Shown here: positions 25,119-32,175 of the stretch, piece after piece
How the letters are laid out: each line of letters begins with the position of its first letter
How positions within the stretch are numbered: the first letter of the stretch is position 1
Assembly (NCBI RefSeq): GCF_903642285.1
Contig: NZ_CAHJWJ010000008.1
Location: forward strand, 1-64,000
Source: Sphingomonas bacterium
GTDB taxonomy: Bacteria > Pseudomonadota > Alphaproteobacteria > Sphingomonadales > Sphingomonadaceae
Length of the DNA stretch: 64,000 nt
Reading direction: 5' to 3'
Program-made: the position numbers and the translations under genes
Notes under the pieces: model-generated
Told to the model about the DNA's origin: nothing
Seen by the model: the letters and a program-made list of their open reading frames with translations, nothing else
Databases searched by the model: none

Positions 25119-25193
25119 GCGGGCGTAGCTCAGGGGTAGAGCACAACCTTGCCAAGGTTGGGGTCGAGGGTTCGAATCCCTTCGCCCGCTCCA
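25119..25193 (+). tRNA. tRNA-Gly (anticodon GCC)
   Basis: A complete cloverleaf can be drawn: acceptor GCGGGCG/CGCCCGC, D-arm from TAGCTCAGGGGTAGAGC, anticodon stem CAACC/GGTTG around loop TTGCCAA (anticodon GCC), T-arm GAGGG-TTCGAAT-CCCTT, and an encoded CCA end. The DNA downstream is accessory in character, but no second copy of the tRNA 3' end was found in the window, so use of this gene as the attachment site of the following segment is not shown. Confidence 0.97.
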
Positions 25194-25683
25194 GTTTTCA
25201 ATTTCAAATCCGATATTTACCACGCGTTCGAAAGGACGCTCTCCTCACAAGTTGTGGCTGGACACCCTAGCCACCACGAAACGCAAATGAGTGCCCTCCT
25301 TTCCACGCCTGATTGGAGCGACTTGCGGGCAAGCTATGGTGCTGCCGGTAGGCTGAGGGATCGTCCGCCAGGGAATTGCGTACGTCAGTAAGCCACGGGT
25401 CACCTCGGGAGAAATCAGATGCGTGCGATCGTGGGGCCTGCAATAAGTTAGAGAAAGATCGAACAGATTAAACGATTTCCGCTACCTGTACGCATAGTGT
25501 CGGGCGAACGGATATCAGCGGTGCCACATCACATGACGACGAGCACCTCCCCACCAGCGATAACCCGCTCAGTGGGTGAGCGCTAAACCGCGATCTCCGG
25601 TGGAACGGGTGGGCCCGCTCAATGTGCTCAGGCCAAGGCTCGTCTTACATCCCTTGGCGGGCCGGCGGGACCAGCCAAAAACG
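25194..25683. other. 490-base gap after tRNA-Gly, no gene recognised
   Basis: The stretch has lower GC than the DNA before the tRNA and no open frame with protein-like composition or family resemblance. A short frame from 25287 (MSALLSTPDWSDLRASYGAA) could be a relic of a longer gene but ends after about 34 codons. It probably marks the edge between core genome and accessory DNA. Confidence 0.4.
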
Positions 25684-26139
25684 TCATGTGTCGCTTGCTG
25701 AATAGGCTTTCAGCAGATCGCAGGTTTGCTCAAACGTGTGCCGGAAAGGGGGTAGCGCATGGGGCACGGTCTGCCAGTCACGATTGGAGCAGTCTTTAGA
25801 AGCACAACGTATCCGAATGGAGTCGACAACAATCGCGTGCCTATCCTCGGCATCTTTGCCCCGTGCCAATCTCACGAGCGCCACCTCGTGGCAGGTTTTG
25901 TTGCGCAAACATATGCGATTGTTTTTCGTGCGGGCTTTCACCTCGATTGTCCGTGATCCCATTTGAAGATCAAAAAGGTCTTCGGTTTGGCTGACTATCG
26001 GCACTCCGAGGACGCTAGAGGCTATAAGCTCCCCGAGTGCCCCGATCGCCGGTGTGGGAGTGTCGTTGACCTTCCCGTCACGCCAATCCTCAAGCTTCGC
26101 GAAGCCAGCCGCAAGCAGCGTATGAGGAGTCTGAGACAT
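25684..26139 (-). CDS. Hypothetical protein with PD-(D/E)XK-like nuclease core
   Basis: A 151-residue product starting MSQTPHTLLAAGFAKLEDWR from ATG 26139, with AAGGA five bases upstream. The centre shows AIGALGELIASSVLGVPIV, then TEDLFDLQMGSRTIEVKART. A Glu in a helix, an Asp after a loop and an E-x-K strand end are the order of a PD-(D/E)XK active site. The C-terminus has two Cys (CASKDC) and RHTFEQTCDLLKAY. I do not recognise a named family. Small nuclease-like proteins of this kind occur on mobile islands. No partner methylase is next to it, so it is not a plain restriction pair. Confidence 0.55.
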   Translation of the reverse strand: MSQTPHTLLAAGFAKLEDWRDGKVNDTPTPAIGALGELIASSVLGVPIVSQTEDLFDLQMGSRTIEVKARTKNNRICLRNKTCHEVALVRLARGKDAEDRHAIVVDSIRIRCASKDCSNRDWQTVPHALPPFRHTFEQTCDLLKAYSASDT

Positions 26140-26758
26140 CGCATCCTTCCCCAAAAGGAAATTGACTGCTGATACTAGCTTCGTGGATCTGATCGAAACG
26201 TTAATAAATTAGAGCCCCCGCTCGGCAACGTGTCCGGACGAATCGGAGTGCCTGCTCCACCTGGCCGGCCGTGAAGAATTGCAACTACGCAAAAAAACGT
26301 TGCGATACCCTTACGACTGATCGGCCTCGCCAGCAGGTAGCCGCCGTGACGAGATGAACAAGCAACCCGAGTTAGGGAACGAAAAGGGCGACCCGAACGG
26401 CCTGAAAAGATCCTTGGTAAGGCTGAGGTCAAGGGTTCGATCCCCTTCGGCAGCACCATTCGCACCAGCGGAAATCTGCGAAAAAGATCCCCTTCGGGGG
26501 CGCCACAGCTGGATACGAATGAACATGCAGCATCTCTCGTCTCCAATTCGTATCCACCTGAAAGCGTAGTGTCGGTTAGTTTCGGCCAATGTGGAGGGAG
26601 TCTTGTCGGGCCTACATCTCGTCGATGATGGCGCGGTGGGGCTTATGAACGGTGGGTGGGCGCGCCGGGAGCGGAGCGTCCATTGTGCGGAAGAGCGCTT
26701 TCTTCTGGCTACATGATCATCTGCTCCAGTAAGCACGCCGTAGGAGAACGGATCGATT
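26140..26758. other. 619-base gap holding a tRNA-Thr 3' fragment
   Basis: No convincing protein gene. Open frames here on the minus strand translate to strings such as GIEPLTSALP and EGDRTLDLSL, which are familiar artefacts of reading tRNA genes backwards. The only recognisable feature is the partial tRNA at 26410-26459. A small hairpin (CCCCTTCGGGGG) lies at about 26489-26500. Confidence 0.5.
26410..26459 (+). repeat. 3' fragment of a tRNA-Thr(GGT) gene, probable attachment-site remnant
   Basis: The 50 bases read as the anticodon loop TTGGTAA (anticodon GGT), variable loop, a sound T-arm (AAGGG-TTCGATC-CCCTT), the 3' acceptor strand CGGCAGC and ACCA. The matching 5' half (acceptor GCTGCCG and D-arm) is absent: upstream bases do not pair. 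Such half-tRNAs that begin at the anticodon loop are what tyrosine-recombinase attachment sites leave behind. A mutated, non-functional tRNA gene would look the same. Confidence 0.6.
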
Positions 26759-28735
26759 GTGACTGCGGAAACCGACACCCTCGTAAAACCTGACATGAAG
26801 GCTGTGCTGGAGCGCACCCATGTCAGCAAGGATCTCCAAGGCTTCCTGCTTCCGACGCTTGAGGCGGTGTCGAACGCCATGCACGGGATCGAGACACGCT
26901 TCGGCGAGGAAGCTCGAAAGCACGGGACGATCGAGATCGCCATATCGGGTATCAACGATCCAAGGCACCTCATGATCTCCATCACCGACAACGGCATCGG
27001 CCTCGATGATAGCAATTACACGTCTTTCAAGACGCCGTTCTCGGGTCACAAGCTTCGCCAGAACGGCCGTGGCTTTGGCCGCTTCATCGCCTTCAAAGTC
27101 TTCAATCGCATCCTCTACTCAAGCCGCTTTGAAGCGCTGCCGGCGCCGGATAAGCGCACCTTCCGGTTCGATATTCACCAGAAAAACGAGCTGATCTACC
27201 ATGATGGCGAACCGGACTTCGCCCATCTCGGCCTCCGCGTCGACTACGACGAGCCCCGCCCGGAATGGCAAGAACTGATCGCGACCCTCGACCAGAGCGA
27301 CATTGCTGATCACATCGGCAGCCACTTCCTGCCGCACTTCCTTTACCGCTGGCTCCCTGAGATCACCATCCGGTTCGATGATGCCGAGCCGAGCAGCATC
27401 ACAGCGCATTTCAAGAACGTGTTCGTGCAGTCAGACGCTGGATCGTTCGACGTCCAGATCGACGGCAAGGTGGAGCGCATCGATTATTCGCTGACCAAGG
27501 TGCCCCGAACCCGGTCGTTCAAGAATCACAGCCTGCTGTTCGCCGCTGGCGATCGTATCGTCGGCAACCCGCGCGACCTCACGAACCTGCTCGGCCAGCC
27601 GGCTTTCTATGACGACAACGACCAGGCCTACATCGTGATCGCGGTCGTTCGATCGAGCGCTTTCGAGACCCGGCTCAATGACGCACGGACCGGCATCAAC
27701 ATTACCCCTACGGCGGTTGAGGAGATCGTTGGCGCGATCGGCGATATCATTCAGAAGACCGAGAACACCCAAATTGCTAAGATCAAGGCGACGCAATCGC
27801 GCGATCTGGAAGGCGCGCTTCAGGAGAATCCGATCTTACGCATCGGCCTCAAGGGCCAGTCCATCTCGTCCTACGTGGCAGGGAAGCCTAACAACTGGAA
27901 GGCCCAGGACTTCGTCTCAAACCTCGCTATCGAGCGCTATCGGGTCTCGCGCGACCTATCCAAGGCGATCACGAGCGCGGCCAACAATCCTGATGATTAT
28001 ATGGCCAATATCAAGGACATCGTCGACAAGATCGATGCATCCAATAAAGAAGCGCTCGCAGAATATGTCGTGCATCGCAAAAAGGTGATCGAACTGATCG
28101 AAGCCGCTCGCAAATATGGCACCACCGGTGCGCACGCGCCCGAGGACACGATCCACGACCTCGTCTTCCATCGGTTCTCTGACAGCGTTGATACCGACTA
28201 TTTCGAGCACAACCTTTGGCTGATCGACGATGCCCTTGCGTTCCTCCCATACATCTCGAGCGACCGGGCGATGCACGGCAAGGGTCGCAAGAAGGGAGAC
28301 AAGATCGCTGATCTCGCCTTCTTCGACGATAGCCTTGTCCTCGGAGACAACGACGGAACCACGATCACGATCGTCGAGTTCAAGCGGCCGAGCCGCGACG
28401 ATTATCGGTTTGGCGACGTGAAGCACGATCCGGTCATGCAGGTTATTGAGACCCTTAAAGGCGCCACCGCGGCGGGTGGCATCGCAAAGACGGATGGTTC
28501 GCACTTCGCCTTTCGGGGCGTCGTTCGTCGCTTTGGCTACATCGTCGCAGACCTAAAGCCATCGCTTGAGACCGTTCTGCGGAACCACGATTTCAAGAAC
28601 GATTGGAATCCAGACATCTACGTCCGTTACCGCGACAACGAACAGATCTTCATCCAGGCAATGGGGTACGACACGCTTATCGCGCACGCTAAAAAGCGCA
28701 ATCAGGCGTTTTTCAGCGTCCTATTTGGCGAGTAG
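26759..28735 (+). CDS. GHKL ATPase fused to a PD-(D/E)XK-like nuclease domain (candidate defence protein)
   Basis: A 658-residue protein, GTG start with GGAG upstream. Residues 33-110 hold a Bergerat (Hsp90/MutL-type) ATP site: N-box E35-AVSN-A40, then ITDNGIGL with D77 and G79/G81, then GRGFGRF at 103-109. The middle (about 150-330) looks like an S5-type transducer region. The C-terminus has D518 (KIADLAFF), then ITIVEFKRP with E540-x-K542 and Q561, the order of a PD-(D/E)XK site; the VEFKRP strand recalls Shedu-type nucleases. ATP-gated DNA cleavage is inferred. Related MutL/MORC-like ATPases with nuclease domains are known from restriction-like systems. It is single-gene in appearance and sits in accessory DNA beside conjugation relics. 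Confidence 0.7.
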   Translation: MTAETDTLVKPDMKAVLERTHVSKDLQGFLLPTLEAVSNAMHGIETRFGEEARKHGTIEIAISGINDPRHLMISITDNGIGLDDSNYTSFKTPFSGHKLRQNGRGFGRFIAFKVFNRILYSSRFEALPAPDKRTFRFDIHQKNELIYHDGEPDFAHLGLRVDYDEPRPEWQELIATLDQSDIADHIGSHFLPHFLYRWLPEITIRFDDAEPSSITAHFKNVFVQSDAGSFDVQIDGKVERIDYSLTKVPRTRSFKNHSLLFAAGDRIVGNPRDLTNLLGQPAFYDDNDQAYIVIAVVRSSAFETRLNDARTGINITPTAVEEIVGAIGDIIQKTENTQIAKIKATQSRDLEGALQENPILRIGLKGQSISSYVAGKPNNWKAQDFVSNLAIERYRVSRDLSKAITSAANNPDDYMANIKDIVDKIDASNKEALAEYVVHRKKVIELIEAARKYGTTGAHAPEDTIHDLVFHRFSDSVDTDYFEHNLWLIDDALAFLPYISSDRAMHGKGRKKGDKIADLAFFDDSLVLGDNDGTTITIVEFKRPSRDDYRFGDVKHDPVMQVIETLKGATAAGGIAKTDGSHFAFRGVVRRFGYIVADLKPSLETVLRNHDFKNDWNPDIYVRYRDNEQIFIQAMGYDTLIAHAKKRNQAFFSVLFGE

Positions 28736-28897: not shown

Positions 28898-29668
28898 TTG
28901 GGATTTTTGAAGAAACGCGTACTCGTCACCGACGTCGACAACACCCTGCTGGATTGGCAGGAGCTCTGGTATCAGACCTTTTCGGCAATGATCGGCAAGG
29001 TTCTCGAGATTTCTGGCGTTGATCCCGAGGAGTTCTACGTCCAGTGCAGCGTGATCCACCAAAAATACGGCACGAGCGAATATTCGCGCCTTCTCGAGGA
29101 ACTGCCGTGTCTTCGCGCGCTCTATGGTGATGATACCGTCGCCATCATGGCGCCGGCAATCGACGCATTCCGCGAGGCCCGCCGCAGCGCCTTGCGGCTC
29201 TACCCGACTGTGGAGCAGACGTTGAAGTCGCTTAAAGCGGCCGGCGTTCTTATCGCCGCTTTTACCGAGTCCAAGGCATTTTACACCAACTACCGATTTC
29301 GCAAGCTCGGCCTCGACGGCCTGATCGACTACCTTTACTCACCCGAAGATCACAGCATGCCCGACGAGACGCCGGGCACCCGGTTCTATGCTCCCGAAAC
29401 CTACAGCTTCAAACATACGGTCCATCATTACACCCCCGAAGGTGAGATGAAACCCAACCCCGACATCCTCATCCAGATCATCGCGGATCTCGGCGCCTCA
29501 ATTCCGGAGGTGGTCTATGTCGGCGACAATATCCTCAAGGACGTCTTCATGGCCCAGCAGGCCGGTGTTACCGATGTCCACGCGCTATATGGCGCCAGTC
29601 AGCACAAACCCGAATATGAGCTGCTGCGGAACGGTTGCAGGCGCAAGACGAGCTCGGTCGCGACGTGA
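28898..29668 (+). CDS. HAD-family hydrolase, C-terminus replaced by foreign sequence
   Basis: The product has HAD motif I VLVTDVDNTLLDW at the N-terminus, motif II Thr in IAAFTESKAFY, motif III Lys in EMKPNPDILI and motif IV VVYVGDNILKDVFMAQQAGV, so the phosphatase core is complete. Substrate unknown. The start is TTG 28898 or TTG 28907, the latter giving KKRVLVTDVDN. After about residue 246 (PEYELLRN) the frame enters DNA that encodes a relaxase in another frame, so the last ten residues (CRRKTSSVAT) are not native. The gene was cut by recombination near 29630. Confidence 0.75.
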   Translation: MGFLKKRVLVTDVDNTLLDWQELWYQTFSAMIGKVLEISGVDPEEFYVQCSVIHQKYGTSEYSRLLEELPCLRALYGDDTVAIMAPAIDAFREARRSALRLYPTVEQTLKSLKAAGVLIAAFTESKAFYTNYRFRKLGLDGLIDYLYSPEDHSMPDETPGTRFYAPETYSFKHTVHHYTPEGEMKPNPDILIQIIADLGASIPEVVYVGDNILKDVFMAQQAGVTDVHALYGASQHKPEYELLRNGCRRKTSSVAT

Positions 29669-30402
29669 CTGTGCAGACCGAGCGCGGTGAGCGACAGTTC
29701 GCCGAGAACGACCGAATCCTGTTCCTCAGGAATGAGCGTGAGCTCGGCGTGAAGAACGGCTCGCTCGGCACCGTCGAGAAAGCGAGCCGCGACACGCTCG
29801 CTGTCCGCCTCGATGACGGTCGCAGGGTCGAGGTCGATCTCAAGAGCTACTCAGCTGTCGATCATGGCTATGCCGCCACCGTCCACAAGACGCAGGGCAT
29901 GACCGTCGACCGCACCCATGTCCTCGCCACGCCCGGGATGGACGCGCACTCCAGCTATGTCGCGCTGTCGCGGCACCGGACGGGCACTGCGCTACACTAC
30001 GGCCGCGACGACTTCGCCGACGAGCAGCAGCTGCGTCGCGTGCTCGCCCGCGAGCGGCCTAAGGACATGGCGCTCGACTATGACCGCGAACCGGGAGCGC
30101 AGTCACGCGGCGACCGCGCGCCGACCAGGAGCGCGCGTGATGCCCCGGACGCGACCGCCTTGCGACAACCGGCCCAAGCAGCTGGCGCTGCCGCGACGCG
30201 CGGCGCCGCCGGGAAGGAAAGGGAAGCCGCTGCGGGTGCAGTCACTCCCGCCCCGGATCGCGCAAAGCGCCTGCGCGAGACCTTCGCGGCGCTGGCCGAT
30301 GCGCCGCAGCGCTCGCCGGAGCAGACGCGGGCGGCGTTCGCGGCCGCTGCCAAGGCGTTGCCGACGCCGAGCCGCGATCGCGATTATGGCGCCGAGCTGT
30401 GA
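29635..30402 (+). pseudogene. traA: TraA conjugal relaxase/helicase, C-terminal fragment
   Basis: The 255 codons match the end of Ti-type TraA (MobF-like relaxase plus RecD-type helicase). ERQFAENDRILFLRNERELG is the SH3-like insert region, YAATVHKTQGMTVDRTHVLA the UvrD-C-terminal motif, and SSYVALSRHRTGTALHYGRD the final helicase motif. A disordered Ala/Arg-rich tail follows. The relaxase and helicase N-terminal two thirds are missing, so it cannot function. Its 5' border coincides with the broken end of the HAD gene. The stop overlaps the next gene start by four bases (GTGA), as in an intact transfer operon. Confidence 0.85.
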
Positions 30403-30938
30403 GCGGCGGTGCCACCAGCGGCGGCGGTCAGGGATCCGGTTCGGGTCCGATCGTCCATCAGATCAGCTTCCTGCTGTCGCTGGTGGCGATCGCTCTTGGC
30501 TGGCAGTTCGTGGCGCGCCTGATCCCCGCCGATGCGCGCTTCGCCTGGCGCGACCTCGTGCTAGAGCATTGGCGGCACCGAGCGGCGCTCCAGCCTTATC
30601 TCGACCAGCGCTGGCTCTGGCTCGCACTCCATCGCTACCATGTCTGGTTTGCGCTTGCCGCGCTCCCCGGCACCCTTGCGATCGGCACGGTCCAGGCGGT
30701 CGATCGCCGTACACCTTGGGCGTTGCTCGCGGCGCCGCTCGGCTGGGGCGGCGGGTGCCTGGTCGGTCTGTGGCTCTACACGAGCTTCCTGGCCGGCAGC
30801 CCGATGCTCGCCGTGCTGCTGCCGGCGATCTTCGGCTATCTGGGCGGTGCGGTCGCCCCGCGGCTCGGCGCCTGGCCGCCCAGATACACCTCTGCGCGGC
30901 ACGCGGATGCGCGGAACCGCGAACCTGCTTCGCGGTAG
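30399..30938 (+). pseudogene. N-terminal membrane part of a TraD-like coupling protein (frameshifted)
   Basis: From GTG 30399 the frame encodes a Gly-rich start, hydrophobic helices (about residues 22-40, 86-103, 109-133 and 137-151) and then VAPRLGAWPPRYT, after which it degenerates to SARHADARNREPASR and stops. The next base register continues LRGTRMRGTANLLRGRLITG, the usual run into the coupling protein ATPase core. A net one-base shift near 30885-30895 therefore appears to have split a single gene of about 590 codons. It could be a true mutation or a base-call error. Confidence 0.65.
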
Positions 30939-32175
30939 GCTGATCACTGGCCTTACCGGGCGCGTCGCGCTTGCCGGTGTGCCGCTGACGCCCGAGGATG
31001 AAACGATGCACGTCGCCGCGATCGGCGCGACCGGCTCGGGTAAGTCGACCGCCCTCCGCGCGCTGATCGCCGACGCATCCCGCCGCGGGGACCGGCAGGT
31101 GGTCGCCGATCCCGACGGCTCGGCGCTTAGCGTCTTCCATCAGCCCGGCGACATCATCCTCAACCCCTATGACGCGCGCTGCGCGCGCTGGGATCTGCTG
31201 AGCGAGATCGAGCAGGTCGGCGACTTCGCGATGGTGGCGCAGTCGCTGCTGCCGCATCTGGGCCATGGCGATCACGACCAGTGGATCAGCTACGGCCAGC
31301 AGTTCCTCGCCAGCGCCATGGAAAGCTGGGTCGTCAATGCCATGGGCAGCTCGGCCGAGTTCGTGATGGCGCTCGGCTCGGCCAACAAGGCGCAGCTGAA
31401 GGCGCTTTGCCAGGGCACGCCGGCGGCGCGCTATTTCGAGGAGGGCGGCGAGCGCATGCTCGCCAGCATCCTCGGGACGGTCACACCCGCCGTCGCCAGC
31501 CTGCGCAGCTTCGCCGTGCAGACGGGACCGGCCTTCTCCGTCCGGCGCTGGGTGCGTAATGGTAGCGGCTCGCTGTGGATGCCCTATGCCGCGAACCAGA
31601 TCGCGGCGCTGCGCGGGCTCATCTCCTGCTGGATGAATCTAGCGATCATGGAAACGCTGTCGCTAGCGCCCTCGACCGAACGCCGCATTTGGTTCCATGT
31701 CGACGAACTCGACGCGCTGGGGCGCATCGAGGGGCTCAAGGACGCACAGGCTCGACTGCGCAAGTTCGGCGGACGCGTCGCAATCGGGTTTCAGAGCTTC
31801 GCCCAGGTCAAGCAGATCTATGGCGAGGGTGCGCATACTATCATTGAGAATTGCGGAAATCTTCTGCTGCTCCGCTGCGGTCTTAGCGAAGGGGGCGGTA
31901 CTGCCGAACTCGCCTCCGACCTAATCGGCAGTCGTGAAGTCGATCGTGATGACGTAAGTCAGTCACGCACGCGCGGGCGGTTCATCTCACGGTCGATGTC
32001 GATGCAAAGCAAGCGAAGCATTGAGGATGTCGCGCTCGCCAGCGAGATAATGCAGCTTCACAATCGAGAGGGCTTCGTAAAAAGAGCGACCGAGTCGGAC
32101 TGGTGGCGTGTCCGCTTCCCTTACGTGAACTATCCATTACGTGTCCAAGGCTTCGAGCTCGGTCATGATAGTTGA
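30907..32175 (+). CDS. traD: Type IV coupling protein ATPase domain (TraD/TrwB-like)
   Basis: The 422-residue frame from ATG 30907 has Walker A AAIGATGSGKSTALRALIAD (about residues 36-55), a Walker B-like WFHVDELDALGRIEGL and GFQSFAQVKQIYGEGAHTII typical of TrwB/TraD AAA domains. The C-terminus is VRFPYVNYPLRVQGFELG. Coupling proteins hand relaxase-bound DNA to a type IV channel. The membrane anchor is in the preceding out-of-frame segment, so the protein made from this start would be soluble and probably not functional in transfer. Confidence 0.82.
   Translation: MRGTANLLRGRLITGLTGRVALAGVPLTPEDETMHVAAIGATGSGKSTALRALIADASRRGDRQVVADPDGSALSVFHQPGDIILNPYDARCARWDLLSEIEQVGDFAMVAQSLLPHLGHGDHDQWISYGQQFLASAMESWVVNAMGSSAEFVMALGSANKAQLKALCQGTPAARYFEEGGERMLASILGTVTPAVASLRSFAVQTGPAFSVRRWVRNGSGSLWMPYAANQIAALRGLISCWMNLAIMETLSLAPSTERRIWFHVDELDALGRIEGLKDAQARLRKFGGRVAIGFQSFAQVKQIYGEGAHTIIENCGNLLLLRCGLSEGGGTAELASDLIGSREVDRDDVSQSRTRGRFISRSMSMQSKRSIEDVALASEIMQLHNREGFVKRATESDWWRVRFPYVNYPLRVQGFELGHDS

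Follow-up and report, generated by a model that had tools for sequence, protein, structure and literature searches.

We analyzed a 64,000-nucleotide stretch of DNA from a Sphingomonas bacterium (the window; positions 1 to 64,000 of contig NZ_CAHJWJ010000008.1, assembly GCF_903642285.1), in which one gene (26759..28735, plus strand) is predicted to join a GHKL ATPase to a PD-(D/E)XK nuclease in a single chain of 658 amino acids. By analogy with characterized relatives, this gene probably encodes a nuclease with paraMORC3 architecture that acts as a single protein against phages or plasmids; its GHKL and S5 domains are predicted to license Shedu-like cutting of invading DNA. An earlier sequence-only reading had proposed a defense nuclease of this kind and suggested that its two-domain form was undescribed. 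The core of that proposal stood: a GHKL ATPase joined to a Shedu-type PD-(D/E)XK domain, a mobile island, and defense genes beside the homologs. The claim of novelty did not, because an undescribed architecture is ruled out by paraMORC3 (PMC2292703) and VcSduA (PMC12137116).

Domain architecture of the protein

By its reading frame and by alignment to homologs, the open reading frame (ORF) is intact, with 658 codons from a GTG start at 26759 to a stop at 28733-28735. A candidate ribosome-binding site read in the sequence, AGGAGA, lies 11 nt 5' of the start (26742..26747, +). The first 12 residues, GTG start included, are identical in a homolog of 91% identity (L001). Comparison of these two genes gave ratios of nonsynonymous to synonymous substitution rates (dN/dS) of 0.053 for the whole gene and 0.024 for residues 455-658, showing that the gene is under purifying selection. 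A search of the 3.05-Mb genome found one copy.

We scored conservation in an alignment of 19 rows (A1), 11 of them at 21-29% identity to the query. The GHKL ATPase domain lies at about residues 12-206 (26792..27376, +), as placed by Pfam, conservation, and the structure model with its Protein Data Bank (PDB) matches. HATPase_c was the single Pfam family detected at E≤1 (2.3e-6, residues 35-115), and the N-terminal ATP-binding motifs (E35, N39, D77xGxG81, G103RGFGR108) are intact: E35, N39, D77, G79, G81, G105, G107, and R108 each occur in 19/19 rows. In the predicted structure the GHKL domain is followed by an S5/transducer-like domain, also suggested by fold matches, at about residues 214-340 (27398..27778, +; boundaries approximate; R266 and R310 invariant). 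The secondary structure of the model then indicates a helical linker at about residues 341-454 (27779..28120, +). The predicted structure of residues 1-377 resembled, in PDB fold matches, the GHKL+S5 modules of Hsp90, MORC2/3/4, and SMCHD1. We know of no PD-(D/E)XK domain in MORC2, MORC3, SMCHD1, or Hsp90.

The Shedu-like PD-(D/E)XK nuclease domain is predicted at about residues 455-658 (28121..28732, +) from conservation, the model, and fold and profile matches. D518, E540, and K542 are present in 19/19 rows of A1 and Q561 in 18/19; E462 and H466, which the sequence-only reading had not listed, are likewise present in 19/19. The domain thus has the E-D-ExK residues of paraMORC3, E462 as the first E being our own assignment. 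In a larger alignment (A2, 119 rows, 14 of them of gammaproteobacterial type), D518 is found in 105/119 rows and S in the other 14; we took this S to be an alignment slip because A1 aligns D in rows of gammaproteobacterial type. When modeled residues 430-658 were submitted to a fold search, Shedu nucleases were the top four PDB entries, and Nt.BspD6I, McrC, and EndoMS also matched. An hhalign comparison of the nuclease region with a Shedu profile of 9 sequences (L064 left out for lack of a recovered frame) gave a probability of 96.6%, versus 0.2% for a reversed control. By profile and by fold, the domain is thus homologous to SduA_C.

The structural claims made from the sequence were largely borne out. 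The ORF lies where it had been placed, with the single-chain, two-part build and every residue that had been named; the ATP-site residues are invariant, in a part modeled with an Hsp90/MORC-type fold; the D518...E540-x-K542...Q561 array is conserved; and the C-terminal part matches PD-(D/E)XK folds.

Sequence databases gave little else. The query had no convincing match in PADLOC, NCBIfam, PHROGs, or PDB sequences; the PDB sequence searches returned weak matches only (histidine kinases, TRAP1, and PMS2 for the ATPase part, and otherwise unrelated chains). A PADLOC match to bGSDM (0.0045) was rejected as spurious, being short and lacking support in the homologs. PF14082 found 0 matches in the gene's own genome, and the control for that search also gave 0.

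Distribution of the homologs

Of 7997 candidates scored by phmmer, 354 proteins passed E≤1e-3, and a second search based on A1 also recovered 354. Among the best 120 of these 354, the query itself aside, identity ranged from 60 to 98% and nearly all matches were full length; the organisms named among the matches listed were all alphaproteobacterial. The two-domain length is conserved among the homologs. The homolog from Vibrio fluvialis, used as query, returned 2532 proteins.

The gene is sporadic and laterally mobile, as paraMORC3 genes are. Its own genome included, 12/196 genomes of the order and 4/289 of the class had a match; it was absent from 184/196 of the order, and 0/13 other genomes sampled from the same genus had a match. 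This distribution rules out a housekeeping gene. By tblastn, 56/72,556 plasmid records matched, of which 30 were typed conjugative. In 45 of the 56, at least 80% of the query aligned at a single location; identities were mostly 24-29%, with one of 59%. These plasmids came from alpha- and gammaproteobacteria, Bacteroidota, Actinomycetota, Nitrospirota, and others. Among phage records, 1/50,697 matched, and a scan of viral_contigs gave 5 pattern matches and 0 relatives. The phage homolog (vB_RanS_PJN03, L021:2485-4509) stands near the genome end beside an integrase, and its annotation as an N-acetylmuramoyl-L-alanine amidase looks wrong. In Sphingomonas guangdongensis (L010:10001-10180), the match covered only the final 60 residues of a 97%-identical copy; this piece adjoins a 246-aa gene that in L001 stands after the full copy, and it is likely a remnant left by deletion.

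Gene neighborhoods of the homologs

We compared the annotations of 13 loci, 12 on plasmids and 1 in a phage, chosen for taxonomic spread from the matches listed. For 10 of them, a control region was taken from the far side of the plasmid that carries the homolog; the phage and the plasmids of the Ti and V. fluvialis loci had none. Defense genes were counted by annotation (restriction-modification (RM), CBASS, Abi, RnlAB, SIR2, and similar), and VapBC-type modules were excluded on both sides. Annotated defense genes were present at 8/10 homolog loci (L012, L015, L016, L017, L018, L019, L022, L023) versus 1/10 controls (Fisher p 0.0055), the positive control (L047) carrying two DNA cytosine methyltransferases. 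The homologs are thus enriched near defense genes, an outcome that the sequence-only reading had named as support, and not confined to housekeeping contexts without nuclease residues: the residues are kept and the contexts are mostly non-housekeeping.

Outside the controlled set, a TIR-domain gene lies 3 kb further on at the Ti plasmid locus, and the phage locus had no defense genes in its annotation. On the V. fluvialis plasmid (L024:4619-8013), a type I RM operon precedes two adjoining genes for Shedu-type nucleases: a canonical Shedu gene and the GHKL-nuclease gene, whose start it overlaps by 4 nt.

For the close clade, we scanned 56 neighboring ORFs from nine loci against PADLOC. Among the families listed (25 of 48), SoFic was found in 2 members and AbiEi, AbiEii, AbiD, Dsr1, PDC-S68, and TmtA in 1 each. 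Ten neighbors were mapped, among them AbiEii with AbiEi in L004, SoFic in L007, and PDC-S68 in L001. We also looked for a conserved partner gene by blastp among the ORFs of 8 close-clade loci and the window, and none recurs. The shared neighbors were a 218-aa protein (L003, L007) and one protein that L001 has in common with the remnant at L010, and neither matches a neighbor in the window.

Genomic island and neighboring genes

The gene sits near the left end of a genomic island. The 3' part of a tRNA-Gly(GCC) gene (25119..25193, +), a 46-nt segment at 25149-25194, is repeated without mismatch at G000:C8:85036-85081. In two relatives (G746, G764), the sequence beyond 85081 directly follows tRNA-Gly, and on the upstream side their match comprises the tRNA and 57-77 nt before it. 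The perfect repeat and these junctions show that 25195-85081 is an inserted island of 59.9 kb. A third relative (G148) is collinear with the window in the upstream genes between 19338 and the tRNA but differs on the downstream side.

A second element may be nested inside. The segment 26410..26458 (+), a candidate attachment site, agrees at 43/49 positions with the 3'-terminal 49 nt of tRNA-Thr(GGT) from this genome, the 6 differences lying in the T-arm region. A second tRNA-Thr half occurs 42.7 kb away within the island (G000:C8:69159-69208), about 1 kb from an integrase gene match (C8:67810-68229, minus strand). The two halves and the integrase suggest a nested element. The mobile setting, the half-tRNA site, and the conjugation relics pointed out earlier were thus all recovered, the relics being a TraA/RecD-like helicase fragment (29635-30402, weak matches) and a TrwB/TraD coupling protein (30640-32175, 1e-91).

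Two other genes of the window deserve mention. A HAD hydrolase gene (28898-29668, +) is a near full-length match to the PADLOC "Hydrolase" model (4.5e-79, model 1-242 of 288), and its frame terminates within the TraA-like relic. On a Rhodobacter plasmid, a gene 76% identical to it precedes one for a protein with two predicted membrane helices, and this second protein lacks a homolog in the window; the HAD gene is perhaps an orphan of the HAD plus transmembrane anti-T7 kind (PMC9122126). As a functional partner it was rejected and treated as separate because no HAD-like match occurs among the close-clade neighbor ORFs. A 156-aa ORF (25684-26154, minus strand) with an IEVKAR strand has sub-threshold matches to Pfam DUF6998 (0.0047) and PADLOC RmrA (0.0048) and is possibly, judging from its sequence, another small PD-(D/E)XK-like protein.

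Discussion

Iyer, Abhiman and Aravind (2008; PMC2292703) described paraMORC3 as GHKL plus S5 plus a C-terminal restriction-endonuclease-fold domain with E-D-ExK, sporadic in proteobacteria and bacteroidetes and partly encoded by standalone genes. We saw no architectural difference between our protein and this published description. According to Adams et al. (2025; PMC12137116), VcSduA of Vibrio cholerae (type I-D) is a single-gene fusion of GHKL with a DUF4263 nuclease. It shields E. coli against Drexlerviridae and V. cholerae against X29, E27A and K557A each abolish protection in E. coli, and cultures survive at every multiplicity of infection tested; the authors hypothesize that the ATPase controls the nuclease. 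Our protein likewise has a GHKL N-terminus and a Shedu-type nuclease in one chain from one gene, with the catalytic E and K placed as E35 and K542. Six sampled Vibrio-type homologs and one from Salinivibrio have E27 and K556, one residue off the VcSduA numbering, and are therefore close to VcSduA in layout; standing in for the VcSduA sequence, the Vibrio-type homologs are ∼26-27% identical to the query. VcSduA is reported with DUF4263, whereas our protein does not reach the cut-off of Pfam SduA_C. The C-terminal domain resembles that of canonical Shedu (SduA, PF14082; PDB 8ti8, 8ti9, 8ps4, 8ps5) in fold and profile match, in the D / ExK / Q order, and in an IExxxFDxLL-like tail. The N-terminal part differs: ours is a GHKL+S5 ATPase module, whereas E. 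coli SduA is reported to sense DNA ends through another N-terminal clamp and to nick at a fixed distance (review PMC12904381). From the published paraMORC3 plan and the VcSduA data, we therefore file the protein under paraMORC3 architecture, likely VcSduA-like in action, and not as a Pfam-defined Shedu.

A mechanism can be proposed from VcSduA, Shedu, and GHKL proteins, which suggest ATP binding and hydrolysis, dimerization, DNA clamping, and DNA cleavage, with restriction acting directly and not through cell suicide. With ATP, the GHKL dimer would close and the S5 domains would clamp on DNA; the closed clamp would license the Shedu-like nuclease to cut invading DNA. The GHKL/S5 clamp may respond to a DNA end, which E. 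coli Shedu senses, or to some other property of the incoming DNA. A bolder and rather doubtful version is that the clade forms a distinct branch of ATP-clamp nucleases, in which a MORC-like dimer, closed by ATP, would entrap or loop incoming DNA, pass it to the Shedu-type nuclease, and so recognize its topology or length, not a sequence or free end.

Several observations weigh against a defense nuclease of Shedu type. Pfam SduA_C (PF14082, formerly DUF4263) did not match the query at E≤1 and reached its cut-off in 0/12 scanned homologs, the sole match at E≤1 being L017 (0.15); no PADLOC model (2.0.0) recognizes the protein. The C-terminal model has a mean predicted local distance difference test score (pLDDT) of 66.7, with values <50 at residues 470-489 and 491-523, D518 inside, and 3/4 of the top Shedu PDB rows tie with the nickase Nt.BspD6I (6.9). 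No intact second defense system was found beside the gene in the window, 2/10 loci (L013, L014) had no annotated defense genes, and 6/10 mapped close-clade neighbors had no defense match. The comparison of 8/10 with 1/10 loci was made on loci that we chose ourselves, with annotations judged by hand and the controls known.

Other functions were considered. The protein might be a subunit that depends on an RM or helicase partner from another locus of the genome, like other MORC/paraMORC proteins: Iyer et al. (PMC2292703) found the majority of MORC/paraMORC genes within RM operons and allowed that standalone paraMORC3 might have unlinked partners, and homologs stand after RM genes in L015, L018, and L024. 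We consider this unlikely, since the 218-aa protein was the only neighbor family recurring across the 8 close-clade loci, and VcSduA alone protects E. coli in the published account (PMC12137116). Carriage on an island, in plasmid records that include conjugative types, and in one phage could instead reflect a main role in excluding plasmids or competing mobile elements for the carrier. This seems quite unlikely given that VcSduA, the sole tested protein of the same design that we found, restricts phages (PMC12137116), and phage and plasmid targeting are compatible with each other. A role in repairing mismatches or DNA ends, as a recruited MutL-like protein, would fit the plan of GHKL+S5 plus nuclease, which MutL also has, and repair is raised for non-RM versions in PMC2292703. 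Such a role is highly improbable for a gene absent from 13/13 other same-genus genomes and 184/196 of the order, in a mobile context and with a Shedu-like nuclease.

With an anti-phage or anti-plasmid nuclease as the preferred reading, what is added to the known is a clade from alphaproteobacteria, whose listed members are 60-98% identical and which Pfam SduA_C and PADLOC 2.0.0 miss. We found no paper on this clade, although supplementary lists (e.g., the 543 hits of VcSduA) may include it. The architecture was proposed in 2008 (PMC2292703) and its defense role shown in 2025 for one Vibrio protein (PMC12137116). Because the clade is invisible to both models, defense surveys likely undercount it. 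If recognition by topology or length were true, the clade would directly parallel, in bacteria, the entrapment of DNA by eukaryotic MORC proteins, with cutting coupled to it. A nuclease that carries a MORC-like ATP clamp would also lend itself well to studying what MORC-type ATPases recognize on DNA.
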